The notes under the pieces were generated by a model. It worked only from the letters and a program-made list of their open reading frames with translations. It was not told the DNA's origin and searched no databases. The position numbers were made by a program, and so were the translations under genes. From contig JBDKSB010000009.1 in the NCBI GenBank assembly GCA_039683095.1, positions 1-64,000 on the forward strand: a stretch of DNA of 64,000 nt, written 5' to 3'. This document shows, one piece after another, positions 43,638-58,372 of the stretch; the stretch's first letter is position 1; the number at the start of each line of letters is the position of its first letter. Origin of the DNA: Acidobacteriota bacterium (lineage in GTDB: Bacteria; Acidobacteriota; Aminicenantia; Aminicenantales; Saccharicenantaceae).

Positions 43638-43740
43638 GCCTTGGCTAACGCAAGTACCACATAACTAAATAATTAGGCCGGACTTAGCGCCGCTTCATTA
43701 GTTTTGACGCGTCTTTTTTTCGGCAAAAAACGACAAATTC
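43638..43740 (-). repeat. Intergenic repeat family, copy A
   Basis: On the minus strand this copy ends with TTGCGTTAGCCAAGGC (43653-43638). Its inner part has TTTTTTGCCG and AAAAAAAGACG words shared with copy G. It lies 167 bp upstream of the LRR2 start. The outer boundary is approximate. Confidence 0.7.
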
Positions 43741-43861
43741 GCGCGGGGAAGTTTCGCGGTCCCACGGTCTACAGAATTATGGGAACGGACGGGGGCCTTC
43801 TCCGGCCTCTCTTCCCCTATCGCCTTAACCAGAAACCGCGGTCCGGCGACGTGAATTTCGC

Positions 43862-43890
43862 TTGACAAGGCGCGGTTGTCACGCGATTTT
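43862..43890 (+). promoter_or_regulatory. Possible promoter of the metzincin-like gene
   Basis: TTGACA (43862-43867), a 17-base spacer and GATTTT form a sigma70-like pair. The -10 is weak. The TTG of the -35 is also the first possible in-frame start, which argues for a later start (GTG 43946). Confidence 0.4.
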
Positions 43891-43945
43891 TTCTATTGGG
43901 GGTCAAACCAGGATTGGCCTCGAGGCCTCCGGGGGGTGTTTCTTC

Positions 43946-44887
43946 GTGCGGGATTCCGTTCGGGCCCGGACGCCTGGCCGCTTGGCGGGCGCGCTGGGGA
44001 TGGCTGCGGGGACAGCCCTGACATTGTTGCTGTCGGTTCGCGCGGCTGATCCTCCCGATCCCTCCGGCAAGACTGTCCCGACAAGGAAGATCTCAGTTTT
44101 CGTGGTCGCCGACGCGCCCCTCAGCAGGAATGTGGCTTGGAAAGGGGAGATCCTGCGCGCTTTGTCCGATGCCAACTGGTACCTGCTCGAGGCGGCGGGG
44201 CTCAAGTTCAAGATCGAGGCGTACGGCGGCTGGCAAGCGCGGCCGGCGGCGCGGACGTCCGGAGAGAGCGGCTCGAAGCCGGATGTCACGGCCGAACGGA
44301 CGGCGGTCAAGGCGGGGAGCGCCTACCGCTCGATCTACTCGTTCCTCCACTCTTTCCGGAGGCGGCTGAAGGCCGCGGACGGCGGCGAAAACGGAGCGGG
44401 CCCCGGCTCGAACGGCGCCCGCCGGGCGGCCGGGACCGGGGAACCCGGCGGCTATGAGATCGCCATCGGCCTCGTCGCCCGAGGGCCGGACGGGCCGGCG
44501 GAACCCGGATTGGCCGATTACAATTATGGCATCGTGCTCCTCAGGTACGAGGAGAATCCCAAAGGCCTGACATACGTCGTGCTCCACGAGCTCTGCCACC
44601 TCTTTGGCGCGGTCGACCTGCGGGAGAGCGGGACGGTGATGAGCCGGGAAAGACCGGGCTTCCGGCTCGATCGCTTCACCCAGGACATCATCCGCGTGAA
44701 CAGGGACCGGACGTTCCGCCGGGCCGGGGGCCCGCTCAGCGACGAACGGATCCTGCAGGCCCTGAACCTCTACCGGGAGCGCCGGGCGTTGGGGCTGGAC
44801 GAGGACGGACTGGCGGTCTGCATACGCGAGCTCCTGACGGCGGCGGCGATGCGCGGCCGCTCGGCCTGGCTGGTCGCGCTGCGCTGA
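43946..44887 (+). CDS. Metzincin-like (HExxHxxGxxD) exported putative metallopeptidase
   Basis: The protein is 313 aa if started at GTG 43946, behind a G-rich ribosome site. A basic n-region and GALGMAAGTALTLLLSVRAA then form a signal peptide. An ATG at 44000 and a TTG at 43862 are alternatives. The zinc motif is HELCHLFGAVD (H214, H218, D224) with a likely Met-turn at M232 (GTVMS), as in matrixin- and snapalysin-like metzincins that use Asp as third ligand. The first half (ISVFVVADAPLSRNVAWKG) is not recognised. It is divergent from LRR2, and nothing in its neighbourhood tells the substrate. Confidence 0.75.
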   Translation: MRDSVRARTPGRLAGALGMAAGTALTLLLSVRAADPPDPSGKTVPTRKISVFVVADAPLSRNVAWKGEILRALSDANWYLLEAAGLKFKIEAYGGWQARPAARTSGESGSKPDVTAERTAVKAGSAYRSIYSFLHSFRRRLKAADGGENGAGPGSNGARRAAGTGEPGGYEIAIGLVARGPDGPAEPGLADYNYGIVLLRYEENPKGLTYVVLHELCHLFGAVDLRESGTVMSRERPGFRLDRFTQDIIRVNRDRTFRRAGGPLSDERILQALNLYRERRALGLDEDGLAVCIRELLTAAAMRGRSAWLVALR

Positions 44888-45000
44888 CGCTGACAAAGGC
44901 GCTGACGACGGGCGCGACGCTCGTCGATCGCCGCCGGCTGGGCTGGGCCCGGCCGCTCACGGGCCGCGCGGGCCACGGTGCGGGCCCGGGCGGCGGCTGC

Positions 45001-46134
45001 TCAGGCCCCGTTGATGTCGTTGACCAGGCGCCGCAGCTGGGCGATGCTCTTGCGGTTGAAGGCCAGCGAGAGGCGGGGCAGGTCGGGATACTCGACATCG
45101 TCCCCTTCCGCTTCGAGCGGCCCGGCGTGCTCTTCGATGCGGCCCTCGCTCAACAGGGTCGAGGCGTAGGTGTCGTTGAGGCGCTCGAGCGCGCCGGGCG
45201 GGAGCGGCGAGGAGAGGCGGAGCATGAGGACCGGCCCGACATAGCGCATCGAGTGGAAGCGGCGGTAGAACCCGATGATCTCCCCGACGGCCGTGTCGAC
45301 GTCATCGGTCAGCTTGAACAGGCTCAGGTCATCCTCGTCGATCATGCCGTTGAGGACGAGCTCGGCCTTGACATAGGTCCGCCAGTGCTGCCAGTAGGTG
45401 CCGCCGGGCGCGTCGACCATGACCAGGGGGATCAGGTTGGTCTTGCCCGTCTCGATCATGGTCAGGGCCTCGAAGCCCTCGTCCTGGGTGCCGAAGCCTC
45501 CCGGAAAGAGGGCGATGGCCGAGGCCTCCTTTAGGAAAAGGATCTTGCGGGTGAAGAAGTACCTGAAGTTGATGAGCTTCGGGTCGTCGGCGATGACGAC
45601 GTTGGTCTTCTGTTCGTGCGGCAGGCGGATGGCCACGCCGAAGGACCCGGCCCGCCCGGCGCCGAGCTGGGCGGCGCCCATGATGCCGTCGCCGGCCCCG
45701 GTGATGATCATCCACTGGCGCTCGCGCATGCGGCGGGCGAACTCGACGGCGTGGAGGAACTCGGGATGGCCGGCGGGCGTGCGGGCCGAGCCGAAGACCG
45801 AGACCTTGCGGACGCCGTGGTAGGGGGCGAAGACCTTGAAGGCGTAGCGGAGTTCCTTGAACGAATTGGTCAGGAGCTTGAGGTCGCCGCGGCCGGCGCC
45901 GTCGCGGGCCACGCGCGTGATGGCGACCATGAGGTCGGCCAGGACGTCGTGGTCGGGGCAGCCGGCGGCGAAACGGTCGAGAAATTCGTTGATCGCGGCG
46001 TCGCGGGCGGCGGCCCACCCGGGGGTCGCGGGCTCGCCGGGTACGGGGCCGGGGACGGCGACGGCTGGGGCAGAGCCGGCCGCAACAGGAACGGCTGGAA
46101 CGGAACCAGCGCAGGTTCGGGGATCTTTATCCAT
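45001..46134 (-). CDS. LOG-family (lysine decarboxylase-like) phosphoribohydrolase-type protein
   Basis: The protein is 377 aa. The Rossmann-like LOG signature is present: SVFGSARTPAG (about 110), MIITGAGDGIMGAAQLGA and PGGFGTQDEGFEAL with the catalytic Glu. The family cleaves nucleoside 5'-monophosphates at the N-glycosidic bond. This is a long-type member with an Ala/Pro/Val-rich N-terminus (residues 8-40, VPAVPVAAGSAPAVAV) and a helical extension (about 45-100), and a C-terminal extension of about 100 residues. It is cytoplasmic, and the physiological substrate is unknown. It is transcribed away from the helicase region on the same strand with about 200 bp between. Confidence 0.9.
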   Translation of the reverse strand: MDKDPRTCAGSVPAVPVAAGSAPAVAVPGPVPGEPATPGWAAARDAAINEFLDRFAAGCPDHDVLADLMVAITRVARDGAGRGDLKLLTNSFKELRYAFKVFAPYHGVRKVSVFGSARTPAGHPEFLHAVEFARRMRERQWMIITGAGDGIMGAAQLGAGRAGSFGVAIRLPHEQKTNVVIADDPKLINFRYFFTRKILFLKEASAIALFPGGFGTQDEGFEALTMIETGKTNLIPLVMVDAPGGTYWQHWRTYVKAELVLNGMIDEDDLSLFKLTDDVDTAVGEIIGFYRRFHSMRYVGPVLMLRLSSPLPPGALERLNDTYASTLLSEGRIEEHAGPLEAEGDDVEYPDLPRLSLAFNRKSIAQLRRLVNDINGA

Positions 46135-46151
46135 GCCTCGATTTTACCATT

Positions 46152-46331
46152 AAATGGGGGACATGATACCCGTTTCCTATTTATCCAGGCGGGGAAAACG
46201 CGTGACATGTTACCCTTTCGGCATTCAGGGAACGATGACGGCGGCGACTACGACGGCGATAGCGACGGCGACGCGGCCACAGCCCGTCCCGCCTTTCCGA
46301 GATCCGAAAATGAGAACCGGGTCCCCGATTT
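46152..46331. repeat. REP-like inverted elements between LOG and helicase genes
   Basis: A 31-bp element at 46152-46182 (AAATGGGGGACATGATACCC, then GTTTCCTATTT) and a related inverted one at 46308-46331 (AAATGAGAACC, GGGTCCCCGATTT) bracket this gap. A third weak variant (GTGACATGTTACCC) lies near 46202. The two elements inside the helicase gene have the same core (GGGACAcaATACC..TTTCC). Confidence 0.65.
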
Positions 46332-46340
46332 CCCGGCTTC

Positions 46341-49300
46341 TTAGGCCAGCGCCTCGATCCAGGCGATCTTGCGGGCCAGGCGCACGGCGGAGATGGGGAA
46401 AGCGGTCTTGATCTCCGGGGCGAAGAGGGCCAGCTTGAACTCCTCGATCATCCAGCGCAGCTCTTCGACCGCGGCCCGCCTGGCCTCAAGATCGGCCGGC
46501 AAAATGGGAACCCCTGATCTCGGCGGCGCGGCGAGCCGCGAAAGCTCGAAGACGTAGGGCTCGACCTGGGCGGCCTTGGCCTTGTCCTTGTCGGGGGCGA
46601 TGCGGGCCCGGTCGAGCCGGATGAGCAACCCCTCGAGGTAGCTGCGGATGCGGATGAGCCGGACGACCGGATAGACCGCCAGAAAGTCCTTGGGAACGAG
46701 GCGGTCGAGGTCCGCGCCGACGGCGTCCAGGTACTCCGGTTTGACCCTGTCCTTGAGCCGGCCGAGTTCATAAAGGCTCAATGTCCGGGCCTCGGCTCTC
46801 GTCTTTGACGGCGCGGCCGCGCCTGCCCGCGCGCCCGCCCCTCCGCCCGCGCCCTTGGCCAGCTCGGATCGCAACTTGGCGTGGAGCTCGACGATCTTGA
46901 TGACCGTCTGGGTCAGGGCATGTCCGCGGTCGAAGAGACTCCGGCCGACTTCCGCTTCGTAAGCTCTGTACTCGGCCTCGGCGCGGATGTTGCGCTCGAA
47001 GACGTCCCGGGCCAGGGCCTCTTCGATGGCCCGCTCGAGGGCCTCCCGCCCGCCGAAGTGAAGCGCCGCCTGGTCGAGCTCGGCCGGGATCTTGTGGTAG
47101 CGGCGGACGAAGGCCAGCTCCTTGGCGAACTTCCGCATGAGCAGCTGCCGGACGCCCCTCTTGTGCGCGGCCTCGGCCTCGGCCCGCGTCGGGAACAGGC
47201 GGATGTCGACCGTCCCGGCGGTTCCGGGTTCGCTTCCGGGTTTGGCGGCCGGGGGGGCCGTCTGCGCCTTCGCCCCGCCCTGAGCCGCAGCCGGGCCAGA
47301 AAATTCGGAAATAGGTATTGTGTCCCCCATTTTTAGGGCGGGGTAGGCCGTGAGCGACGTGCCGACGGCGATCTTCTCGGGCAGATCGCCGAAGGTCCAG
47401 TCGGCCAGGCCCGTCTTCTCCCAGGCGCGCCGGGCCTCCTGCCAGGCCGGCGACTCGACCTTGGAGGGGGCCTGGTCCGCGGCCCCGAGCTTCTTGCGCA
47501 GGAGCTCGACGTCGCGGCCGGCGTCGAGGACGCGGCCCGTCGACGGATCGACTACCGCGACGCGCAAGCGCAGGTGCTTAGGCACGTCGGCCAGGGCCCA
47601 TTCGCGGGCGGGGATGTCGGCGCCGTAGCGGCGCCTGACGAAATCGGCCACGGCCTTGAAGAGCGGCACTTCCTCCGGCGCCCGGGGCATGTCGCCGGCG
47701 ATCTCGCGCGCCTTCTCCGCCACCGGCACGAGGAGCTTGCGGTAGCGCTTGGGCAGGCCCTTGATGAGCGCGGCGATCTTGTCCTGGTACTGCCCGGTCA
47801 CGCCCCATTCCAGGCGCTCGGCCGGGATGGCGCTCAGCAGCTCGGGCGGGACCGTCAGCGTGACGCCGTCGTCCTCCTCCCCCGGCGCGAACTTGTAGAC
47901 CGCCGGGAACGGACGGCCGGCCACCTCGACGCGGTCCGGGAAGCCGGCGACGGCGCTCTCGTCCGGCCGGTAATTGAGGAGATCGTCCTCGGACAGGCGC
48001 AGGAACGCGTCGTCGCCGCCGCGGTCGCGCACGTCCCCGAGCAGCTTGCGCAGCGTCCGGACGTCGTGGATGCCGGGGAGCTTGGCCGAGTAGAACTTGG
48101 CGATCTCGCCCTCGGCGACGAGGATGTCCCGCCGCCGCAGCTTCTCCTCCATGGCCTCGACCTGGCGCTGCAGGGCCAGGTTGTGGACTAGGAACGGCGG
48201 CGGGTCGTCGATCTCGCCCTCGACCAGGCCGTTCATGACGAAGATCTCGTGGGCCTCGGCCGGGTTGACGCGCCCGTAGGACACGCGGCGCTCGCGGACG
48301 ATCTCGAGCCCGAACAGGGTGACCCGCTCCTTGGCCGTGACCTCGCCGCGCGAGCGGTCCCAGGCGGCGTCCGAATACGAGCGCTTGCAGAGCGGGCCGC
48401 CGAGCCGCTCGAGCCAGGCGGGGTCGATCCGGGCCGCTTTCCGGGCGAACAGCCTCGACGTCCGGACAACCTCGGCCGAGACGATCCAGCCGGCGCCCTT
48501 GCCGAAGAGGACCGAGCCCGGCCAGAGCGTGACCTCGCGGTTCTTGGCCCCGTTGTAGACGTTCTTCTCCTTGTGCGCGGCGATGTTCGACAGGTACCCG
48601 CTGAGGATGGACCGGTGGATCGCGCCGTAGAGCGCCGGCGATATGTCCGCATGCAAAATGCGGGACACAATACCTGTTTCCGCATTTCCGGTCGCGTCCG
48701 CCGTCCCGCTCCCCCGTTCCTCATTCGATTCGATCCCGGCTCCGCCTTTCGCCGTTTCCGGCGGCGACGTCCGGGCCGCGCCGGCCAAGAGGGGGTCGAA
48801 CCCGCTTTTTGCCCGTTTTTGAGTGAAAAGCAGGTTCGAGCCCTTCTTCATCTTCCCGCGCTCGAGCTCCCGCAGGGCCGACTCGATCTCGGCGTGCAGG
48901 TACGTCCACTCGCGCATGCGCGGGAAGGACAGGAAGTTCTCGTGGCAGAAGCGCCGCTTCTGGACGAGCGAGCCGAGCTTCTCGAAGTCGCCGTGGTAGC
49001 GGTTCCAGATGTTGAGCAGCACCAGGAAATCGGAGTCCGGGTGCTTGAACGCGGCGTGCACCGCGTCGGCCTGCTGGGCCTTGTCCGGCGGCCGCTCGCG
49101 CGGATCGCGGATGCTCAGGGCCGCCGCCAGCACGGCCACCTCGGGCAGGCAGCGCTCCTCGCGCGCCTCGATCAGCATCCGCGACAGGCGCGGATCGAGC
49201 TGCATCCGGGCCATGGCCCTGCCCGTCTCCGTCAGCTCCCAGCGCGAGGCCGCCGGATCCGGCGGCCGGAATTGGGCCGCCTTCCTGACGGCGCCGAGCT

Positions 49301-50678
49301 CGACCAGGGTGTCGTAGCCGTCGTGCACGGCCTTGGCCGCCGGCCGGTCGATGAACGGGAACTGGAGCGGATCGCCCAGGCCCAGGTCGGTCATGCGCAG
49401 GATGACCTCGGCCAGGTCCGAGCGCAGGATCTCCGGCTGGGTGAACTCGTCGCGCGACTCGTAGTCGACCTGGCTGTAGAGCCGCACGCACAGCCCTTCC
49501 AGGACCCGGCCGCAGCGCCCCTTGCGCTGATCGGCCGAGGCCCGCGAGACCGTCGAGATGGGCAGGCTGTTGATCCGCGTCCCCGGCTGGTACTGGGCGA
49601 TGCGGGCCACGCCCGTGTCCACGACGTAGCGGATGCCCGGGATGGTCAGCGACGTTTCGGCGACGTTCGTGGCCACGACGATCTTCGGCGCCGTGACGGT
49701 GTAGACGAGCCGCTGCTGGCCCGCCGGCAGGCGCGAGAAGAGCGGCAGCACCAGCGCCCCGGGCCACTTCCGGCCCTCGAGCATGCGGCAGGTCTCGAGG
49801 ATGTCCTGCTCGGTGGGCATGAACACCAGGATGTCGCCTGGGGGCTTCTCCCGCCGCAGGTACTCGACCGCCTCGACCGCCTGGTCGACGTAGTCCTTGT
49901 CCTCGGCCTCCTCCCGGTCCGGCACGCGGTACTCGACCTCGACCGGGTACATCCGGCCGCTGACCTCGATGACCGGCGCGTTCTTGAAGGCCTGGGAGAA
50001 CTTGGCCGTGTCCAGCGTCGCCGAGGTGATGACCAGCTTCAGGTCCGGCCTCTCGTCCAGGAGCCGGCGCATGATGCCGAGCAGGAAGTCGATGTTGAGC
50101 GAGCGCTCGTGGGCCTCGTCGATGACGATCGTGTCGTACTCGTGGAGGCCGTGGTCGCCCTGGGTCTCGGCGAGCAGGATGCCGTCGGTCATGATCTTGA
50201 TGTAGCCGTCGCGCGAGGTCCGGTCCTGGAAGCGGATCTTGTAGCCGACGGCCCGGCCGACCGGCTGGCCCAGCTCCTCGGCGATGCGGGCGGCGATGGT
50301 CATGGCCGCCAGGCGCCGCGGCTGGGTGACGCCGACGCGGCCGGCGACGCCCCGGCCCGCCTCGAGGCACATCTTCGGGATCTGGGTGCTCTTGCCGCAG
50401 CCGGTCTCGCCCGAGATGATGACGACGCGGCGACGCGGCGACCGCAGGAGCTCGACGATCTCGCCGGCCCGGGCCGTGATCGGCAGCTCCGGCGGGTAGG
50501 AGACGCGCGGCACGTTCCTGGCCCGCGACTCGAGCCAGGCCTCGAAGCGGGCGGGCCGGGCGGCGCGGGCAGCCTGGGCGGCGCGTACAGCCTGGATGGG
50601 GCGGGCAGCCTGGGCGGCTTTGGCGGCCTGGATGGGCCGAACGGGCCGGGCTTTGGCGTCGTCGCTCATACCGTCCAT
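46341..50678 (-). CDS. hrpA: HrpA-type DEAH-box ATP-dependent RNA helicase
   Basis: The protein is 1445 aa, slightly longer than typical HrpA (about 1300). Walker A is GETGCGKST (residues 90-98), the DEAH box is VIDEAHERS (187-190), motif III is SAT (219-221), and motifs V and VI include VATNVAETSLTIPG and QRKGRCGRV. HA2, OB and the DUF3418-like C-terminal region follow. It unwinds RNA or RNP in the cytoplasm, for example in ribosome rescue or mRNA processing. The N-terminus has an Ala/Gln/Arg low-complexity leader (AAQAARPIQAVRAAQAARAA). Two REP-like sequences lie in the reading frame at about residues 664-674 and 1116-1126 without breaking it. ATG 50678 lies 10 bp from repeat copy B; ATG 50669 is an alternative. 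Confidence 0.93.
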   Translation of the reverse strand: MDGMSDDAKARPVRPIQAAKAAQAARPIQAVRAAQAARAARPARFEAWLESRARNVPRVSYPPELPITARAGEIVELLRSPRRRVVIISGETGCGKSTQIPKMCLEAGRGVAGRVGVTQPRRLAAMTIAARIAEELGQPVGRAVGYKIRFQDRTSRDGYIKIMTDGILLAETQGDHGLHEYDTIVIDEAHERSLNIDFLLGIMRRLLDERPDLKLVITSATLDTAKFSQAFKNAPVIEVSGRMYPVEVEYRVPDREEAEDKDYVDQAVEAVEYLRREKPPGDILVFMPTEQDILETCRMLEGRKWPGALVLPLFSRLPAGQQRLVYTVTAPKIVVATNVAETSLTIPGIRYVVDTGVARIAQYQPGTRINSLPISTVSRASADQRKGRCGRVLEGLCVRLYSQVDYESRDEFTQPEILRSDLAEVILRMTDLGLGDPLQFPFIDRPAAKAVHDGYDTLVELGAVRKAAQFRPPDPAASRWELTETGRAMARMQLDPRLSRMLIEAREERCLPEVAVLAAALSIRDPRERPPDKAQQADAVHAAFKHPDSDFLVLLNIWNRYHGDFEKLGSLVQKRRFCHENFLSFPRMREWTYLHAEIESALRELERGKMKKGSNLLFTQKRAKSGFDPLLAGAARTSPPETAKGGAGIESNEERGSGTADATGNAETGIVSRILHADISPALYGAIHRSILSGYLSNIAAHKEKNVYNGAKNREVTLWPGSVLFGKGAGWIVSAEVVRTSRLFARKAARIDPAWLERLGGPLCKRSYSDAAWDRSRGEVTAKERVTLFGLEIVRERRVSYGRVNPAEAHEIFVMNGLVEGEIDDPPPFLVHNLALQRQVEAMEEKLRRRDILVAEGEIAKFYSAKLPGIHDVRTLRKLLGDVRDRGGDDAFLRLSEDDLLNYRPDESAVAGFPDRVEVAGRPFPAVYKFAPGEEDDGVTLTVPPELLSAIPAERLEWGVTGQYQDKIAALIKGLPKRYRKLLVPVAEKAREIAGDMPRAPEEVPLFKAVADFVRRRYGADIPAREWALADVPKHLRLRVAVVDPSTGRVLDAGRDVELLRKKLGAADQAPSKVESPAWQEARRAWEKTGLADWTFGDLPEKIAVGTSLTAYPALKMGDTIPISEFSGPAAAQGGAKAQTAPPAAKPGSEPGTAGTVDIRLFPTRAEAEAAHKRGVRQLLMRKFAKELAFVRRYHKIPAELDQAALHFGGREALERAIEEALARDVFERNIRAEAEYRAYEAEVGRSLFDRGHALTQTVIKIVELHAKLRSELAKGAGGGAGARAGAAAPSKTRAEARTLSLYELGRLKDRVKPEYLDAVGADLDRLVPKDFLAVYPVVRLIRIRSYLEGLLIRLDRARIAPDKDKAKAAQVEPYVFELSRLAAPPRSGVPILPADLEARRAAVEELRWMIEEFKLALFAPEIKTAFPISAVRLARKIAWIEALA
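47301..47332 (-). repeat. REP-like element in the helicase coding sequence (copy 1)
   Basis: AAATTCGGAAATAGGTATTG followed by TGTCCCCCATTT, here on the plus strand. It encodes MGDTIPISEF on the minus strand in frame with the helicase. Confidence 0.7.
48657..48686 (+). repeat. REP-like element in the helicase coding sequence (copy 2, inverted)
   Basis: AATGCGGGACACAATACCTG, then TTTCCGCATT. Perfect 7-base terminal arms (AATGCGG, CCGCATT) make it a small palindrome. It is opposite in orientation to copy 1 and encodes part of ETGIVSRIL in the helicase frame. Confidence 0.75.
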
Positions 50679-50688
50679 TCTATCAAGT

Positions 50689-50790
50689 GCCTTGGCTAAC
50701 GCAAATCGCTGATTACCAATTTATTAGGCTGTCCCGGCAGCTTCGGGTCCAGGTTAGGAACAGCGTTTTTCGCGGGATTTTCGCAAATTC
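50689..50790 (-). repeat. Intergenic repeat family, copy B
   Basis: On the minus strand it ends TTGCGTTAGCCAAGGC at 50704-50689, 10 bp before the helicase ATG. CCTAACCTGGA lies 43 bases inside, the same spacing (within a base) as in copy E. Confidence 0.75.
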
Positions 50791-50843
50791 ATGCTTCGGG
50801 AACAGTCCCATGCCCAATCCCCACGGGCCGACGCGCCGTTTCC

Positions 50844-50868
50844 CCGCCTGAGACGGCCCCTCAGGCGG
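50844..50868 (-). other. Stem-loop over the stop of the class V aminotransferase gene
   Basis: CCGCCTGA and TCAGGCGG arms with a 9-base loop include the TGA stop codon. It could act in termination or mRNA end protection; no T-run follows. Confidence 0.4.
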
Positions 50869-52231
50869 CGAGCTTCCTCAGCGAATCCAGCGCGGCCGTC
50901 ACGTCCTCGTCGCGGTTGTTAAGGTAGAACGAGACGCGGATCGAGTTGAGGCCGCCCTCCGCGACCGGCCGGGCCCGGAGACGGTCCTTGGCCATCTGCG
51001 TCATGATCTCGCCGTTGGCGCGGCCCTTCATCCGGAAGCCGATCATGAGCGTGCGATAGGCCTCCTCCTCAGGCGACAGGCGCTCGACCCCCGGGATCTC
51101 GCCCAAGCCGCGATAGAACCGCTCGGCCATCGGCCGGCAGCGCCGGGCGATGCGGTCGACGCCGATCGTGTCCACCAGGTCGAGGGCCGTGCCCAGGGCG
51201 TAGAACAGCGCGTCGTTCTGCGTCCCGGACTCGTACCGCTCGGCGGTCGTCTTGAGCACGAACTCCCCCTTGGCGACGTCGTAGCGATCCGAGGAGCCGC
51301 CGCCGACCGTGAGCGGCCGCAGGACGTCAAGGAGCCCCTGACGGACATAGATGAACCCCGTGCGCTTCGGGCCCATCATCCATTTGTGCGTCGAGCAGGC
51401 GTAGAAATCGGCCCCGATGTCGGCGATGTCGAACGGCGAGCAGACCGGCGCCTGGGCGCCGTCGAGGGCGAACCATATCCTTTTCGCGCGCGCCAGGGCG
51501 GCGATGTCCTTGACCGGGAAAAGCTGGCCGGTCGTGCAGGTGACGTGGCTGAAGACGACGAGCCGGGTCTTCGGGGTGACGAGCCTGGCGATGCGCTCCA
51601 CGTTGCCGGCGGCGCTGACGATGTCCGGCTCGAACAGCCTGATGACGATGCCGTCGCGCTGCCTGCGATGGAGCAGGGCCGAATGGAGGGCGACGTGCTC
51701 ATGCGTCGAGGTGATGACCTCGTCGCCGTTCTTGAGCGGCAGGCCGTGGACGATGACGTTGACGCCTTCGGTCGCCCCGCCGATGAGGCCGATGTCTTCC
51801 TTGCGGCAGGCCCCGCCGAGGGCCCGGGCCAGCTTGGTCTTGACCTCCTGCCACGGCTTCTCGTCGTGGCCGGCGCTCGGGGCCCGCTCTTCGGCCCGGG
51901 TGAATTCGGCAAGGGCGTTGAGGACGGGCAGGGGGCATGAGCCGAGGCCGCCGAAGTTGAGGAAGGTCCATTCCGGGTCGAGGACAAACTGTTCGCGGAC
52001 GAGCTTCCAGTAGAACTCGTCGTCGCCGGCGGCGGCGGCCCGGGCCAGCCGGCCGGCGAGCGGGGCAGCGAAGGGGGCGACGATGGGGGCGGCAAGCGGA
52101 GCGGCGAAAGGAGCGGCCGGCGGGGCGCCCGACGCTCCCGGCGCTCCCGCCGCGGCCCGAGCAATCAGGGGCAGACCGGCTATGCCGCCGGCCAGACCTG
52201 CCGTCATCTTCAGGAAATCTTTTCTTCTCAT
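50861..52231 (-). CDS. Tat-exported class V aminotransferase-like PLP enzyme
   Basis: The protein is 456 aa. A twin-arginine leader (MRRKDFLKMTAGLAGGIAGL) opens the protein and is followed by a low-complexity Pro/Ala stretch (APFAAPLAAPIVAPFAAPLA). The PLP fold follows with GGATEGVNVIVHGL, THEHVALHSALL, FSHVTCTTGQLFPVKDIA, FALDGAQAP (Asp to the PLP nitrogen) and the Schiff-base lysine in STHKWMMGPKRTGF. It resembles the isopenicillin-N epimerase/cysteine desulfurase-like group. The combination with Tat export means the cofactor would be loaded before export to the periplasm. The reaction is unknown. Confidence 0.88.
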   Translation of the reverse strand: MRRKDFLKMTAGLAGGIAGLPLIARAAAGAPGASGAPPAAPFAAPLAAPIVAPFAAPLAGRLARAAAAGDDEFYWKLVREQFVLDPEWTFLNFGGLGSCPLPVLNALAEFTRAEERAPSAGHDEKPWQEVKTKLARALGGACRKEDIGLIGGATEGVNVIVHGLPLKNGDEVITSTHEHVALHSALLHRRQRDGIVIRLFEPDIVSAAGNVERIARLVTPKTRLVVFSHVTCTTGQLFPVKDIAALARAKRIWFALDGAQAPVCSPFDIADIGADFYACSTHKWMMGPKRTGFIYVRQGLLDVLRPLTVGGGSSDRYDVAKGEFVLKTTAERYESGTQNDALFYALGTALDLVDTIGVDRIARRCRPMAERFYRGLGEIPGVERLSPEEEAYRTLMIGFRMKGRANGEIMTQMAKDRLRARPVAEGGLNSIRVSFYLNNRDEDVTAALDSLRKLAA

Positions 52232-52480
52232 AGCGCTCCTTCTCTCCGTCGATCTCGCCGATCGATCTCGTCGTCGACCTCGCCGGCAATCTCGTCAGCG
52301 ATCTCGACGTCCGATCGAGACGAAACTGGAAAGAAGGATTATTCCGGCTGAGGCGGATAAAGTCAACGGGCGCGATGGAGCGACGAGGGCACGTGGAAGC
52401 AAAGGCACGACGAGGGAGCGAAGAAGAAAACGAAGCGGGGGACGCGGCAGGACGCGCCCCCCGCCCTATACAGGAGGTTT

Positions 52481-52720
52481 CTAGGAGGATACTATCGGCC
52501 CTCGCCCGACGAACGGCGCCTGGGCCTTCCTGCCGGGAAAGGCCAGGGCCGGGAATCCGGGGCTATAGGGGAAAAAGAAGCTGGCCACGGAGATGGCCGA
52601 AGCGCGGGAGGGAACGCGCCTCGACAGCGCCGTGGCCAGCTGGGTCATCGCCGACGCTCCGGGCTTTACCGCGATCCGGAGCGTCTTTATCCGCGAAGCA
52701 CTGTGCGCTCGAGCTTTCAT
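52481..52720 (-). CDS. Possible small hypothetical protein
   Basis: A 79-aa frame (MKARAHSASRIKTLRIAVKP...) with a weak GAAAG site upstream lies on the strand of the aminotransferase gene. The start KTLRIAVKPGASAMTQLATAL looks protein-like, but the second half (SFFFPYSPGFPALAFPGRKA) does not fit any family that I recognise. No upstream promoter is obvious. It may be a chance frame in GC-rich DNA. Confidence 0.25.
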   Translation of the reverse strand: MKARAHSASRIKTLRIAVKPGASAMTQLATALSRRVPSRASAISVASFFFPYSPGFPALAFPGRKAQAPFVGRGPIVSS

Positions 52721-52774
52721 CTTTCGGTCTCCATATAATTAGACGAACTCGCCCCGCGAAAAGTTGCATTTTGC

Positions 52775-52860
52775 GCCTTGGCTAACGTATCCGATTGATC
52801 GGCCATTCATTACGTCGTTTTTACGGGAAACCTTCCACCTGACGCGAGATGTTTTTGGCC
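52775..52860 (-). repeat. Intergenic repeat family, copy C
   Basis: On the minus strand it ends ACGTTAGCCAAGGC (52788-52775). The first two bases of the core differ from the consensus. It is left of the RAYT gene and in inverted orientation to copy D on its right. The outer boundary is approximate. Confidence 0.65.
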
Positions 52861-52928
52861 GCAAAAACGTCATTTTTAATGGCTGGCATTTTTGGCCCGA
52901 TAATTCAGAAAAAGGAGGATGGAACCAA

Positions 52929-53699
52929 ATGCCCCGCGCCCGTCTTTATCTCATCCCCGGCTACGTCTGGCACCTGACCCACAGATGTCATGACCGGTGT
53001 TTCCTGCTGCGGTTCAAGCTCGACCGGGAGAATTGGCTGGATCTGATGTCCGAGGCCGTCAGTCGCTACGGCCTGCGCATCCTTGGCTACGCGATCACAT
53101 CCAACCACATCCACCTCCTCGTCTACGCCGACGGCCGGAGGGAGGCCATTCCCCGTTCGATGATGTTCGCGGCCAGTCGCACGGCGCTCGATTATAATCG
53201 CCGGAAGGCGCGCTCCGGCGCGTTCTGGGAAGGGAACTATCACGCCACCGCCGTGGAGACCGGCGGCCATTTCCTGAACTGCCTTGCCTACATCGACCTC
53301 AACATGGTCCGGGCGGGCGTCGTCGGCCATCCCTCGGATTGGCCGTACTGCGGTTTCCAGGAGATCGCCGGGCGGCGGACCACAAGATGCCTGATCGACC
53401 GCGGCCTCCTCATGGAGCTGACCGGCGCGGCGAGCCCCGAGCAGCTGCGCTCCGTCTATCTGGAATGGATCGATGCGGCACTGCGGGCGGGCAGCGCGTC
53501 GCTGTCGAGGCAGCCAAAATGGACCGATTCCGTGGCAGTCGGGCGGGAGGCGTTCATCGACAGGATCCAGGGAGATCTCGGCCTGAAGGTGGTCCATCGT
53601 GAGAAGGCCGAGGCGGGAGACGGGTTCGTGCTGCGGGAAGCGCCCGCGCGGTACTCGGACCGTGCGCAAGGCATCCTCTGCCGTTTACCGCGCCGGTGA
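52929..53699 (+). CDS. IS200-like REP-associated tyrosine transposase (RAYT)
   Basis: The protein is 256 aa from ATG 52929, with GGAGG eight bases or so upstream; the frame is open further left but without a ribosome site. The HUH motif is intact (TSNHIHLLVY, H60-I61-H62), and the catalytic Tyr is likely Y89 (ALDYNRRK). GAFWEGNYHATAV and LAYIDLNMVRAGVV are the RAYT-specific blocks. These single-strand endonucleases act on REP hairpins. Repeat C and repeat D flank it in opposite orientation with GCCTTGGCTAA termini about 1.04 kb apart, a possible unit of mobility. Confidence 0.92.
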   Translation: MPRARLYLIPGYVWHLTHRCHDRCFLLRFKLDRENWLDLMSEAVSRYGLRILGYAITSNHIHLLVYADGRREAIPRSMMFAASRTALDYNRRKARSGAFWEGNYHATAVETGGHFLNCLAYIDLNMVRAGVVGHPSDWPYCGFQEIAGRRTTRCLIDRGLLMELTGAASPEQLRSVYLEWIDAALRAGSASLSRQPKWTDSVAVGREAFIDRIQGDLGLKVVHREKAEAGDGFVLREAPARYSDRAQGILCRLPRR

Positions 53700-53701
53700 T
53701 C

Positions 53702-53776
53702 CAGCCCCCAAACCGGAGACGAAAACCAGGCCGAAAAGCGCGGCCCCAAACTGGACGATTACCCCAAATTGGGGGC
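53702..53776 (+). repeat. Short CCCCAAA-type repeats after the RAYT gene
   Basis: GCCCCCAAACC, GGCCCCAAACTGGACG and ACCCCAAATTGGGGG follow each other just past the RAYT stop. The last is a 13-bp palindrome (CCCCAAATTGGGG). Such words beside a RAYT gene suggest REP-type sequence, though this is inference. Confidence 0.5.
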
Positions 53777-53800
53777 TATCTCTTTTATACTCTGTCTGTT

Positions 53801-53814
53801 GCCTTAGCCAAGGC
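53801..53814 (+). repeat. Intergenic repeat family, copy D
   Basis: GCCTTAGCCAAGGC, itself a hairpin (GCCTT and AAGGC arms). It differs from the others at the first bases. It ends 3 bp before the DUF5916 gene stop and is the right-hand partner of copy C around the RAYT. Confidence 0.7.
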
Positions 53815-53817
53815 ACG

Positions 53818-56067
53818 CTAGAAACGGAAGAGGTAGCTGACCTTGCAGAAGAAGCCGCGCTTCATCTCGTGGAAGCGGCCGCTCGGCGCGAACCCGGGAA
53901 GGCTCTCGTCCCACTCGGTCTTTTCCAGCGCCGACCCGTAGCCGACGTGGATGACCGTGCCCGGGATGTAGGTGAACGACACCAGGCCGTCCAGAGTCAG
54001 GCGCTTGTAGAAGTCGTTGTACTCGGCGATGCCGCGCACGAACAGGTACTTGTTGATCTGGAACGTGTTCTTGCTGCGGACGATCAGGTAGTCATAGATC
54101 TTGACGTGATCGAGCTTGCGGTAAAAGTCGACGTAATTCAGGCTCAGGGTGAAGTCGAGCTGGCTCGTGGGCTGATAGACGAGCGCGCCCATCACGGTCG
54201 TCCCATAGCCCTGGTAGGGATCGGCCGGGTCGTAGAACGTCTTTGCCAGGCGCCGGGCGAAGGCCTCGATATAGAGCGACTTGGCCAGCTGCGATTCGGC
54301 CCTCAGGCCGAAGCCGCCCTGCCCGAACCGCCGCCCCAGGTAGACCTCGTTGGCCATGATCGTGTCGAAGCGGACCATGGTGTTGCGGGGCAGCCAGAAT
54401 CGGAGGGTGACCAGGTTGAAGGTCTCCCACATGTCGGAGGTCGTGTCGTAGAGGTGGTAGCTCCAATAGAAGGGTTCGATCCTCTGGAAGAACCTGGACT
54501 TGGGGAAGATGCTGTGCATGGCGAAGGCCGAGACGCGCCGCAGCCCGGTCCTGTAGACGAAGCCCGAGTCGACCTGGAAGTCCGGGGAGATGTCCTGGTA
54601 GCCGAGGTCGAGGACCCATTTCCGGTTGGAGAAGTTCCAGTCCAGGCCGAGGGCGTGATCGGCGTTTGTCGCCTCGGCGCCCTCCGGCCGGGTCCACGAG
54701 CCGAGCAGGTGGAACGACGCGACCTGCGTCTTGCTGAGGCGGAAGCGGCCGTCGAAGCCGCCGACCCGGTTCCAGACCGTCCCGGCCTCGCGGCCCGTGT
54801 AGAAAACCCCGATGTAGGCGTCGTCCTTGAGCGAATGCTTGTAGCGGGCGATGGTGAAGTCCGGGTGCGTATCGACGGCGTCGCCGGGCAGGTTGTCCTG
54901 GGCATAGATCGCGGCCACGGTGTCCCGCGGCGTCACCTTGCCGGTCAGGCGGAAGCCGAAGACCGGGTCGACGATCGTCCGGGTGTAAACGATGGCCTGG
55001 AGCGGACCGTCCTCGACGTTGCCGGCGAACTTCCACATGTCGTTCCCTTCGAGGAAGAACGGCCGCTTCTCCTCGTAGTAGAGCGAATAGCGCTGGTTGA
55101 AATCGACCTGGCCGGCGTCGGCCTCGACCTGGCTGAAGTCGGGGTTGTAGGCCCCGTCAAGGGTCAGGTCCGAGGTCAGGCCGAATTTGCCGGTCAGGCT
55201 GACGTCCTTGATGTCGTACTCGGGGTTGTGGGCGGGCCGGCCGGCGCTTGCCTCGGTCGCCTCCTGCGTCCGCCCGTAGGTGAAAGCGGGCAGGAGCTCC
55301 CGGACCTGCTTGTGCTCGAGACCCGCGACCTGGAAGGTCTGGGCCTGGCCCATGATCGAGCCGTAGTTCGGGTCCAGGGGCGGGAACGAGGCTTGCTCCG
55401 AGGTCCGGGTGAAGAAACGGATGAACATGACCCGCATGGTCAGGACGTCGCGGCCGGGAAAGCGGATGCTCTGGAGCGGGACGCGGGCCTCGACCGTCCA
55501 GCCCCGATCGTCGACGCGGCCCTTGCTGTACCAGACGGTGTCGTAGCTCGCGTCGAGGTTGCCGTTGACATCGAGCATGCCGTCGCCCTGGATGCCGAGG
55601 GGATTGAGGACGAAGCAGAAGCCGCTCTGGGCGTCGTTGAAGGGGTCGAGCATGACGAAGACGATGTCGTCCTGAAAGATGCCGTCGCGCTTGCTCAGGG
55701 CCGCCTTGACCTTGGACGGATCGGAGTCGTAGCAACGGAAAGCGAAGTAAAAATTCCTGGAATCGTAGGCCAGATAGGCTTCGGTCTTCTGGCTGGGGTC
55801 CTTGGCGTAGTCGGGCTTGAAGGTCTTGAAGCCGTCGTATTTCCGGCCGGAGGCCCAGACGGCGTCGTCGAGGATGCCGTCGATGACGGGCGGCGTAGCG
55901 GCCTTGGCCAGCGGAGGCGGCGGCGAACCGGCGGCGGCGGCCGTGGCGGCACGGGGCCCGGTCGCGGGCGCGGGCGCGGCGGATCCGGCGGCGGCCGCGG
56001 CCGGGAAAGCCGCTGCGGCGAGGAGGAAGGCGGCGACGGGCCAGGCGAGAATCGCTCTTCGGTTCAT
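53818..56067 (-). CDS. CBM9-like/DUF5916 outer-membrane protein
   Basis: The protein is 749 aa. A signal peptide (MNRRAILAWPVAAFLLAAAAF) is followed by an Ala/Pro-rich linker. A CBM9-like beta-sandwich comes next (PPVIDGILDDAVWASG, YLAYDSRNFYFAFRCYDSDP, GWTVEARVPLQSIRF; about residues 60-230). The remaining 500 residues are the DUF5916 region, rich in alternating aromatic strands (YSLYYEEKRPFFLEGNDMW, IHVGYGSALEKTEWDE) and ending in an aromatic C-terminus (KVSYLFRF), as expected of a beta-barrel. The family's substrate is not established here; a carbohydrate or polymer seems likely. Its stop is 4 bp from repeat copy D. Confidence 0.9.
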   Translation of the reverse strand: MNRRAILAWPVAAFLLAAAAFPAAAAAGSAAPAPATGPRAATAAAAGSPPPPLAKAATPPVIDGILDDAVWASGRKYDGFKTFKPDYAKDPSQKTEAYLAYDSRNFYFAFRCYDSDPSKVKAALSKRDGIFQDDIVFVMLDPFNDAQSGFCFVLNPLGIQGDGMLDVNGNLDASYDTVWYSKGRVDDRGWTVEARVPLQSIRFPGRDVLTMRVMFIRFFTRTSEQASFPPLDPNYGSIMGQAQTFQVAGLEHKQVRELLPAFTYGRTQEATEASAGRPAHNPEYDIKDVSLTGKFGLTSDLTLDGAYNPDFSQVEADAGQVDFNQRYSLYYEEKRPFFLEGNDMWKFAGNVEDGPLQAIVYTRTIVDPVFGFRLTGKVTPRDTVAAIYAQDNLPGDAVDTHPDFTIARYKHSLKDDAYIGVFYTGREAGTVWNRVGGFDGRFRLSKTQVASFHLLGSWTRPEGAEATNADHALGLDWNFSNRKWVLDLGYQDISPDFQVDSGFVYRTGLRRVSAFAMHSIFPKSRFFQRIEPFYWSYHLYDTTSDMWETFNLVTLRFWLPRNTMVRFDTIMANEVYLGRRFGQGGFGLRAESQLAKSLYIEAFARRLAKTFYDPADPYQGYGTTVMGALVYQPTSQLDFTLSLNYVDFYRKLDHVKIYDYLIVRSKNTFQINKYLFVRGIAEYNDFYKRLTLDGLVSFTYIPGTVIHVGYGSALEKTEWDESLPGFAPSGRFHEMKRGFFCKVSYLFRF

Positions 56068-56159
56068 TCCGGACTCCGTACGGATGGGGGCTATGTTCTA
56101 TCCTATCTACGGCTCGGCTTTCTCAAAGGTTCGCTCCTTAGGGGGATGGCAGGAAGTGG

Positions 56160-56259
56160 AAAGACGTTTTTTTCGGGAAAAAGGGCTGCCCTAACCTGGA
56201 AGCCGCCTCGAATATGCCGTATAATCGTTTTGTTATCTATAAGTTGCGTTAGCCAAGGC
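56160..56259 (+). repeat. Intergenic repeat family, copy E
   Basis: It ends TTGCGTTAGCCAAGGC (56244-56259), preceded by TTATCTATAA one base away as in copy G. CCTAACCTGGA lies 42 bases inside. The next gene's ATG is 43 bp downstream. Confidence 0.8.
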
Positions 56260-56301
56260 AGGAAATTAGGGGTTGGGGCGTCTAAAGAGACGGAGGGAGC
56301 G

Positions 56302-57282
56302 ATGAAGCATCGTTCAAGGATATCGAATTCCGAGCCTGTCCGGACCGCTATTTTCGAGCCCCGCCGGACCTCCTGCCGGACCCCCGGCTGGACCTCCCGC
56401 CGGGCACCCGTGACGGCTTTGACCGCCCTGTCCGTCCTGGCGGCGTTCGTCCTCGCCGGCCTGCTGGCCGCCTGCAGGACCAAGCCGCCGGCCGACGTCC
56501 CGGGCGAGTTCACCTTCCACGGCGCGGCCATCCACCCGGCCGCCGTCGCCGCCCTCTACAGGTCGTCGACCGGCCAGCTCGATCTGGCCGCTTTCCAGAC
56601 CCGGCTCGAGATACGCCAATGGGAGGACCAGCCCGGTTGGTGGGTGACGGATTTCGAGACCGACCCCGAGACCGGCCGGTCCCCGTTCTTCGCCTACACC
56701 GCGTTCGCCGGGCCCGTCAACGGCGGCGCCGAGCTCTACGTCCTGGCGGTCATGTTCAATAAGGAAGAGACGAGCGATGTCTCCAATATCGTGCTCCTCC
56801 GGAAGAGCGGCAGCCTGCTCGGCCTCGTCCGCGCCTGGGAGGAGGGCAGCGCCTGCGACGGCGGCATCATCAACCCCCGCATGGACGGTGATAGCTTCAT
56901 GTATTCCCGGGAGCTCACGCCTTCCCGCCTTCTCGGCCTGTCGGTCGGGGTCGATCTCGCGGTCACGCCCCACGAGGACCTCGAGGAGACGGGCGAGAGC
57001 TGCTTCGCCGCGGCCAACTACGTCTACAGCCTGACCCAGGACCGCGAAGACCTAGTCTCGGTCCGGCTCTACGACGAGCCCGTCAATGACGAGAAGGGCC
57101 GGACGGAGCGGTTCCGCTACCAGGTCTGCTTCAACCGCCTGTTCAATGAATACCTGGCCAAGGGCAAGACAGCGCTCCTGCCCAGGGAAGTGGACGAGTT
57201 CGCCGCCCGGTTTCGGGACGAATGCGTGAAGCCGGCCTCGGCCCGGACGGCCCCCGCGGCGGCCGATACGACGGACAAGTAG
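56302..57282 (+). CDS. Putative lipoprotein of unknown function
   Basis: The protein is 326 aa from ATG 56302, behind GGAGGGAGCG. A charged N-terminal stretch precedes a hydrophobic helix and the lipobox LLAAC (ALSVLAAFVLAGLLAAC), so the mature Cys would be about residue 58. The body (FHGAAIHPAAVAALYRSSTGQLDLAAF, FAYTAFAGPVNGGAELYVLAVMFN, SPSRLLGLSVGVDLAV) does not match a family that I know. The Cys-rich positions in the body (SACDGG, ESCFAA, VCFNRL) may form disulfides in the periplasm. Repeats E and F/G flank the gene, which may move as a unit. Confidence 0.8.
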   Translation: MKHRSRISNSEPVRTAIFEPRRTSCRTPGWTSRRAPVTALTALSVLAAFVLAGLLAACRTKPPADVPGEFTFHGAAIHPAAVAALYRSSTGQLDLAAFQTRLEIRQWEDQPGWWVTDFETDPETGRSPFFAYTAFAGPVNGGAELYVLAVMFNKEETSDVSNIVLLRKSGSLLGLVRAWEEGSACDGGIINPRMDGDSFMYSRELTPSRLLGLSVGVDLAVTPHEDLEETGESCFAAANYVYSLTQDREDLVSVRLYDEPVNDEKGRTERFRYQVCFNRLFNEYLAKGKTALLPREVDEFAARFRDECVKPASARTAPAAADTTDK

Positions 57283-57324
57283 AAAGAGCGCCCCGAAGCC
57301 CGCCCGAACCGGGGAGCCGCCTCT

Positions 57325-57370
57325 GTTTTTCGTTTGGTCGTTCTTTTCATTAATATGCGTTGGCCAAGGC
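57325..57370 (+). repeat. Intergenic repeat family, copy F
   Basis: It ends TGCGTTGGCCAAGGC (57356-57370), one base different from consensus, and is followed directly by copy G. It starts soon after the lipoprotein stop. Confidence 0.65.
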
Positions 57371-57379
57371 CAGGAAAAA

Positions 57380-57480
57380 AAAAGAACTTTTTTCCGGCAA
57401 AAAGACGTTCTTAAAGCTGATGGCTGCTTCGAGAATTCATATATACTTATTTATTATCTATAATTTGCGTTAGCCAAGGC
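57380..57480 (+). repeat. Intergenic repeat family, copy G
   Basis: It ends TTGCGTTAGCCAAGGC (57465-57480) with TTATCTATAA just before. On the minus strand the core supplies the last two codons and the TAA stop of the aldo/keto reductase gene. Confidence 0.8.
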
Positions 57481-58372
57481 GAGGCAGCAGGTCGGCGGCG
57501 GAGGCGTTCTCGGCGGCCTGCTCCGGGCTCTTCGCGCCGGGGATGACGGCCGTCACGACCGGATCGCGGAGGCACCAGGCCAGGGCCCAGCGCGCCCTCG
57601 AGACCCCAAGCGGCAGCTCGTCCTCGGCGATCTTCTCCGCCTGGCGGACCCGCCGGGCGATCTCCTCCCGGCCGAGCGTCGAGCGGTAGTCGTCCGGCCC
57701 GAACTTCTCGCCGGCTTCGTGCCGGCCGCCGAGGAGGCCGCTCGCCAGCGGCACCCGGGCCAGGATCCCCAGGTTGTAGCGGCGGGCCGTGGGGAAGACC
57801 TCGGTCTCGGCCCGCAGGTCGAGCCGGTTGTAGATGACCTGGAGGACGCCGTAGCCGCGGGCGAAGGCCTCGCGGACCTGGACCTCGCTCCCGGCGCCGC
57901 GGATGGACACGCCGAGATTGCGGACCATGCCCGCCCGCCGGGCCTCTTCCAGGGCGGCCGTCAGCCCGTCGTCGAGGAATGCCTCGTCGCCCGACGAGTG
58001 GAGCTGGTAGAGATCGATCCGGTCCGTGCGCAGGGCCCGGAGCGAGGCGATCAACTGAGCCCTGACGTCCGCGGCGCCGAAGGCGTTCGTCCGGTCCATG
58101 AAGCCGTTGAAGCGGTGGCCGAACTTGGTGGCCACGACCCAGCGGTCGCGCTCGTGGCGGGACAGGTAGTCGCCGATGAGACGCTCGGCCAGATGGTCGC
58201 CGTAGCATTCGGCCGTGTCGATGAGGTTGACCCCGGCCTCCGCGGCCCGGTCGAGGATGGCGTCGACCTCGGCCTGGGTGAAGGTCTTGCCCCACTCCCC
58301 GCCCAGCTGCCAGGTGCCTATCCCGACGACGGAGACCTTGAGGCTCGTCCGGCCCAGGGTTCGGTATTTCAT
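57470..58372 (-). CDS. Aldo/keto reductase
   Basis: The protein is 300 aa with the AKR (beta/alpha)8 tetrad: Asp in NLIDTAECYG (about residue 51), Tyr in the same segment, Lys in VVATKFGH (about 82) and His in LYQLHSSGD (about 125). The NADPH-binding end GAKSPEQAAENA is present. It reduces a small carbonyl substrate with NADPH in the cytoplasm; the substrate is unknown. The final codons and stop come from repeat copy G, so the C-terminus may have been altered. It is divergent from the BlaI-M56 genes. Confidence 0.93.
   Translation of the reverse strand: MKYRTLGRTSLKVSVVGIGTWQLGGEWGKTFTQAEVDAILDRAAEAGVNLIDTAECYGDHLAERLIGDYLSRHERDRWVVATKFGHRFNGFMDRTNAFGAADVRAQLIASLRALRTDRIDLYQLHSSGDEAFLDDGLTAALEEARRAGMVRNLGVSIRGAGSEVQVREAFARGYGVLQVIYNRLDLRAETEVFPTARRYNLGILARVPLASGLLGGRHEAGEKFGPDDYRSTLGREEIARRVRQAEKIAEDELPLGVSRARWALAWCLRDPVVTAVIPGAKSPEQAAENASAADLLPRLG

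Follow-up and report, generated by a model that had tools for sequence, protein, structure and literature searches.

A dispersed family of inverted-repeat ends, probably mobilised by a single-copy RAYT, in a bacterium of the Aminicenantales

The described systems that most resemble the locus studied here are the TIRtrons, or TIRYTs, in which RAYT-like genes lie between long inverted repeats (Di Nocera et al. 2013; PMC3733652). Some TIRtron repeats form moderately abundant dispersed families, occurring as singles, dimers or groups, and Acidobacteria are among the hosts, with one dispersed family in the acidobacterium Koribacter (PMC3733652). A GGGGWSAS motif is common to some, not all, of the described terminal inverted repeats (TIRs; PMC3733652). 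When Quentin et al. (2018; PMC6006769) classified these enzymes, most TIRYTs were placed in subclass 2.1, for which a C-terminal domain with DnaA_C/HTH similarity is a criterion; Y---NP is the signature of class-2 TnpAY1 proteins. No REP-like sequences were found in that subclass, and further analysis was urged (PMC6006769). RAYTs are commonly held to be domesticated (PMC8049555). The present locus bears on the question that the 2018 classification left, of whether anything is moved by those RAYT-like enzymes that have long inverted repeats.

The system described below fits the TIRtron/TIRYT type with REPIN-like pairs. It shares with TIRtrons a Y1 RAYT-like gene, long TIRs flanking that gene both here and at most orthologous loci examined, and membership of the TIRs in a dispersed family. 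It shares with the REPIN/REP systems of E. coli and Pseudomonas a single-copy RAYT, inverted pairs together with singlets, and intergenic positions near gene 3' ends, but the element is about 100 bp long where REPs are 20 to 40 bp, it has no GTAG in its core or at the foot of a hairpin, and it does not fold better than control sequence. With the IS200/IS605 family it has in common the HUH/Y1 fold and the absence of a visible target duplication, but its ends are inverted repeats without significant subterminal hairpins, its transposase gene is single-copy, and nonautonomous copies dominate. Relative to the TIRtron and RAYT literature cited here, the composite, non-hairpin end of about 100 bp, the order-wide match between core and RAYT, the clustering around the RAYT and the empty sites in congeners appear to be new.

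The RAYT unit and its dispersed ends

We analysed a window of 64,000 nt (GCA_039683095.1, contig JBDKSB010000009.1, positions 1 to 64,000, forward strand) from an Acidobacteriota bacterium (Aminicenantia; Aminicenantales; Saccharicenantaceae) whose assembly, here G000, comprises 3.29 Mb in 13 contigs and is 95% complete. An initial annotation of this window had described seven copies of a repeat core, three (A, B and C) on the minus strand to the left of a RAYT gene and four (D, E, F and G) on the plus strand to its right, with C and D bracketing the gene as inverted ends. We recovered all seven positions, each with 0 to 2 mismatches, on the strands described (Table 1), together with the 1,040-bp span from C to D and the sequences said to be common to B and E (CCTAACCTGGA) and to E and G (TTATCTATAA). 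At up to 3 mismatches the whole window held 8 matches, compared with 0.35 expected from shuffled sequence, and no shuffle reached 8. The eighth match (15756, plus strand, 1 mismatch) lies within a long ORF and lacks the element body, and we therefore took it to be a chance occurrence. A search of the window against Rfam returned no matches. Copy B stops 10 bp short of the point where a DEAH-helicase-like ORF of 1445 aa starts (46341-50678, minus strand), and the core of copy G contains the stop codon of a gene on the minus strand (57470-58372).

Table 1. Features of the repeat family in the window. The 5' limit of copy A is approximate, taken from the conservation profile.
Feature	Positions	Strand	Remarks
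Copy A, single	43638..43742	-	Core 43638-43653, ~100-bp body
Copy B, single	50689..50793	-	Core 50689-50704
Copy C, RAYT-unit end, 5' side of gene	52775..52879	-	Core 52775-52790, 2 mismatches
RAYT gene, 256-aa Y1 (HUH) tyrosine transposase	52929..53699	+	Pfam Y1_Tnp, alignment, AlphaFold2 model
Copy D, RAYT-unit end, 3' side of gene	53710..53814	+	Core 53799-53814, 1 mismatch
Copy E, single	56155..56259	+	Core 56244-56259; begins just upstream of a plus-strand gene
IHF-like site TATCTATAAGTTG in copy E	56234..56246	+	1 mismatch to WATCARNNNNTTR; fixed family position
Copy F, 5'-truncated element	57316..57370	+	Core 57355-57370, 2 mismatches
Copy G, single, directly behind F	57371..57480	+	Core 57465-57480
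IHF-like site TATCTATAATTTG in copy G	57455..57467	+	1 mismatch

The RAYT protein matched Pfam Y1_Tnp (4.7e-7), while its match to NCBIfam REP_Tyr_transpos fell below the cut-off. A search of the PDB with its sequence gave no matches, and its AlphaFold2 model (pLDDT 89) most closely resembled 4ER8, the structure of E. coli TnpA-REP with a hairpin, followed by ISDra2 and IS608. The catalytic residues are intact: H60-x-H62 and Y121 were invariant in an alignment of 19 orthologues. Around the tyrosine, 18 of these share the motif YxDxNM and the remaining one has YIDLNS, which differs from the Y---NP signature. Y1_Tnp was the only Pfam domain identified in the 19 orthologues, leaving a C-terminal part of about 110 aa which, taken in isolation, folded at low confidence. 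The one other Y1 gene in the genome (38978-39385, minus strand) has lost its HxH motif (PDSVDF), and neither inverted nor comparable flanks accompany it; it is perhaps a decayed or repurposed RAYT.

We then searched the whole assembly with the core, a check that the initial annotation had suggested. At up to 2 mismatches there were 45 matches, of which 25 were forward and 20 reverse; the core pattern read backwards gave none. The copies extend beyond the RAYT region to five contigs. Every match except that at 15756 forms the 3' end of an element of about 100 bp; the core described initially is thus real, but the actual repeat is the longer element, of which copy F is a truncated example. Dropping 15756 and one palindromic double hit, and adding one weaker copy, we counted 45 elements: 13 inverted pairs of 204 to 260 bp with their cores outward, 17 singles, and the C/D pair. 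Among the 14 inverted pairs, the single long one encloses the RAYT, which identifies C and D as the two ends of a RAYT unit, and the 13 RAYT-less pairs look like that unit without its gene. Since an element of about 100 bp is scattered through the genome and also forms both ends of the RAYT unit, the copies are most likely small elements moved by the RAYT. We consider it very probable that they are the nonautonomous mobile elements of one RAYT, with C-RAYT-D (52775-53814) as the autonomous unit.

The outer core of each end is 16 bp long (TTGCGTTAGCCAAGGC) and is preceded in the aligned copies by a TTTATTATCtgtaag stretch; the IHF-like site adjoining the core lies in A/T-rich sequence. Aligning the copies on the core revealed A/T tracts near -91 and -80 and a (C)TAAnCTGA-like block near -66, with no clear conservation past about -100. 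The two inner A/T tracts are 4 to 5 bp long and spaced by about 11 bp. In about one-quarter to one-third of the copies an A tract stands in place of the 5' T tract. Apart from local pairs, the copies have diverged strongly outside the core, and much of the family therefore looks old, despite its absence from congeners; no polymorphic insertion was seen. GCGTTAGCC and CCTAAC within the element presumably recall an integron attC site; we dropped this reading, inverted pairs at convergent gene ends being unsuited to cassettes.

The 13 RAYT-less pairs and 17 single ends would be derivatives of C-RAYT-D, analogous to REPINs and REP singlets, and the 16-bp core would probably serve as the site of both cleavage and specificity. 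The RAYT may act at the core in the manner of Y1 enzymes, cutting a single strand and rejoining it, with a host protein of the IHF/HU type present at the ends. The unit would then be pasted elsewhere, mostly nearby and with its orientation kept. The insertions that survive are intergenic; very often they coincide with a stop codon, and they can supply a new one.

Orthologous RAYTs and their matching ends

Clear orthologues of the RAYT, with 40 to 67% identity, were found across the order; among carriers that have a name, Candidatus Aminicenantes bacterium RBG_19FT_COMBO_65_30 is the nearest, at 65% identity. Most of the orthologous loci examined have inverted flanking ends that share one layout but carry a lineage-specific core, for example ATATGACAGCCAAGGC, TTACACCAGCCAAGGC, AGCTTGGCCCGACCCC and GTCGGTCTGACCCC. 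Extra copies of the RAYT's own core, with the shared body, lay within about 10 kb in 8 of 11 RAYT neighbourhoods, often as inverted pairs, and an extra copy was absent from the other three. In genome G011 the RAYT ends carry a core whose exact sequence was found nowhere else. With about 20 natural RAYT-end combinations in one order, each with a core of its own, these loci form a ready set for studying how Y1 enzymes choose their ends.

The correspondence between core and RAYT is one to one. The core of our genome, with its 45 copies, is represented in 12 congeners only by 0 to 2 chance 11-mers each. The core pattern of G074 gave 44 matches in that genome and 0 to 2 in each of 93 others, and that of G043 occurs 12 times in G043, 4 times in its congener G045, once in G054 and not at all in 35 others. 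Across the three genomes tested (45, 44 and 12 copies), a core is thus multicopy almost only alongside its matching RAYT, and none of the three cores occurred strongly in a genome lacking that RAYT. The matching RAYT of G045 is broken while its 4 core copies have been kept, so core abundance can outlast the enzyme.

The inverted pairs might instead be ordinary MITEs, left by a DDE transposon that has lost its autonomous copy, the RAYT unit being a chance insertion between two ends. Such an origin would account for the TIRs, the 204- to 260-bp size and the MITE-like look of the RAYT-less pairs. However, orthologous RAYTs in many genomes lie between ends that bear their own matching core, which largely refutes it; moreover, no pair in the genome encloses another gene, the only long unit holding a Y1 gene, and no target-site duplication was visible. 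We regard this origin as very improbable and retain mobilisation by the RAYT.

The core of our genome (TTGCGTTAGCCAAGGC; GCCTTGGCTAACGCAA) lacks GGGGWSAS, a motif that does not define all TIRtrons, whereas the ends of several relatives, G043 among them, finish in GGTCTGACCCC, which reversed reads GGGGTCAG and fits the motif.

Several of the orthologous loci have features of their own. At one locus of G045 (L094/L097; C71:6137-7868) the RAYT ends enclose only the first RAYT codons and, on the opposite strand to that fragment, a full, unrelated AAA-ATPase-like ORF with an open frame of 466 codons, an arrangement that may reflect gene loss or cargo capture. At a locus of G013 (L083, 9850-13402) a complete, near-palindromic element of about 110 bp, more compact than the 200- to 260-bp pairs, lies on either side of the RAYT, with two more nearby. 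At RAYT orthologues such as those of L061, L073 and L094, the end that precedes the RAYT start (TAGACGTTTTTGGCCCCAAAAATGCTCATTTAAG) is conserved across genomes much more than other copies are and is perhaps an operator for self-regulation.

Insertion sites, clustering and orientation

We compared sites of insertion with the same genes in congeners. The element at uvrC (C12:19786) is absent from three congeners; in our genome it has replaced the last codons of the gene and supplies the final UvrC residues and the stop codon. The element at pyrE is absent from four congeners, and a pair on contig C1 from two. No target duplication was visible in the 14 pairs, for which the close empty sites do not give exact junctions. 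At the pyrE 3' end two other congeners (L117 in G003 and L118 in G012) have an element with a different core, GGTCTGACCCC, in the same orientation as ours and within about 5 bp of it (C12:918060-918178). The coincidence points either to a shared hot spot or to a change or exchange of core between families.

Gene contexts, counted with a simple ORF caller, were biased toward gene ends: of the 45 cores, 27 point toward the 3' end of a gene, and in 16 cases the stop codon lies inside the element. Because many cores face gene ends rather than starts, we rejected the idea that the core is a promoter motif. More broadly, the elements could be host regulatory sequences (bidirectional terminators, promoters or RIB-like nucleoid-protein sites) that were spread or kept for their function and that the RAYT merely uses or adjoins. 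This would agree with the bias toward gene ends and with the IHF-like site at a fixed position described below, and there is a precedent in the E. coli RIBs, repeats that bind IHF and lie at transcription-unit 3' ends (Boccard & Prentki 1993, summarised in PMC6006769). Our elements resemble RIBs in their 3'-end placement and in an IHF-like site predicted from the consensus. Against a regulatory origin, the elements are absent at the same genes in congeners, both orientations and gene starts are used as sites as well, and throughout the order it is the RAYT and not the host that the core varies with. We find it improbable, and mobilisation by the RAYT remains the preferred explanation.

The elements are clustered. 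The 31 units of our genome have a median distance of 2.0 kb to the nearest other unit, compared with 39 kb under random placement, and 5 of the 30 non-RAYT units lie within 10 kb of the RAYT unit (p~1e-6). In G043, a single contig, the RAYT has 4 of the 8 non-RAYT units less than 35 kb away (p~4e-6). Closely related pairs are near each other and share their orientation in all five comparisons (C11 112225/114588; C12 213145/215105; C4 61193 versus 63564, 65108 and 68183), and they differ in their outer flanks. This pattern fits short-range transposition that keeps orientation, and some local recombination is compatible with it. Alternatively, a few ancient insertions could have been multiplied by recombination or local segmental duplication, with transposition now absent. 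This would equally yield close, like-oriented relatives such as those on C11, on C12 and at C4 61193-68404, and local amplification, probably through the replication machinery, can occur in REPINs (PMC8049555). Differing outer flanks are not, however, expected from tandem duplication, and the copies occupy unrelated intergenic sites on five contigs; we give duplication little credence as the source of the family.

The initial annotation had all copies pointing away from the RAYT, and considered them mobilised or ordered by it. Within the window all five copies outside the RAYT unit do point away, a 1-in-32 chance, although F and G adjoin. Of the 12 single copies that lie close to a RAYT in other genomes, 7 point away, and the genome-wide count is 25 plus to 20 minus. 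We therefore rejected polarity relative to the RAYT as a property of the system; it is local only. The near-even orientation leaves the link to the RAYT intact, and while ordering did not stand, mobilisation is strongly supported by the orthologue-specific ends, the match between core and RAYT, the empty sites in congeners and the clustering. Strand-specific single-stranded insertion, the other mechanism proposed initially, may be involved: the like orientation of locally related pairs and the lack of a visible target duplication agree with it, but the missing hairpin signal does not.

Structure of the ends and a second repeat family

Folding the elements, also suggested initially, gave no hairpin signal above control: single-stranded ends had a mean z of -0.44, against -0.28 for control flanks. 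Although single copies offered stems that looked good by eye, a conserved hairpin is not supported by these values, nor by the A tract found in place of the 5' T tract in many copies.

The IHF consensus is WATCARNNNNTTR. A site with at most 1 mismatch to it was present in 47% of copies and in 4.5% of shuffles, and the best match fell at one fixed position beside the core in 30 of the 45 copies. The same position recurs in most other core families, and the genome encodes two genes of the HU/IHF family. The A/T tracts had a top period of 10.5 to 10.75 bp in three families (block-permutation p of 0.12, 0.07 and 0.009), and a fourth family gave no signal; given these weak p values and the kinship of the families, helical spacing of the tracts is only suggestive. 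The ends thus appear to be characterised by a predicted IHF-like site and by A/T tracts spaced at about one helical turn. Together with the missing hairpins, the IHF-like site casts doubt on whether this clade of RAYTs relies on single-strand hairpins. Conceivably, the clade might recognise not hairpins but double-stranded, bent nucleoprotein ends, in which an IHF/HU-type protein beside the core and A/T tracts one helical turn apart would bring the ends together, and so be Y1 enzymes with TIRs like those of DDE transposons; we hold the idea to be rather unlikely.

A second dispersed family has the core GGAAATAGGTATTGTGTCCC, which was matched 21 times in 424 kb when up to 4 mismatches were allowed, inverted pairs included. 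Its copies lie in the window at 46158 (minus), 47307 (plus) and 48662 (minus) and on contigs C1, C4, C9 and C11. No matching RAYT for this family was found in the genome, although its GGGGACAC agrees with GGGGWSAS, the motif published for TIRs.
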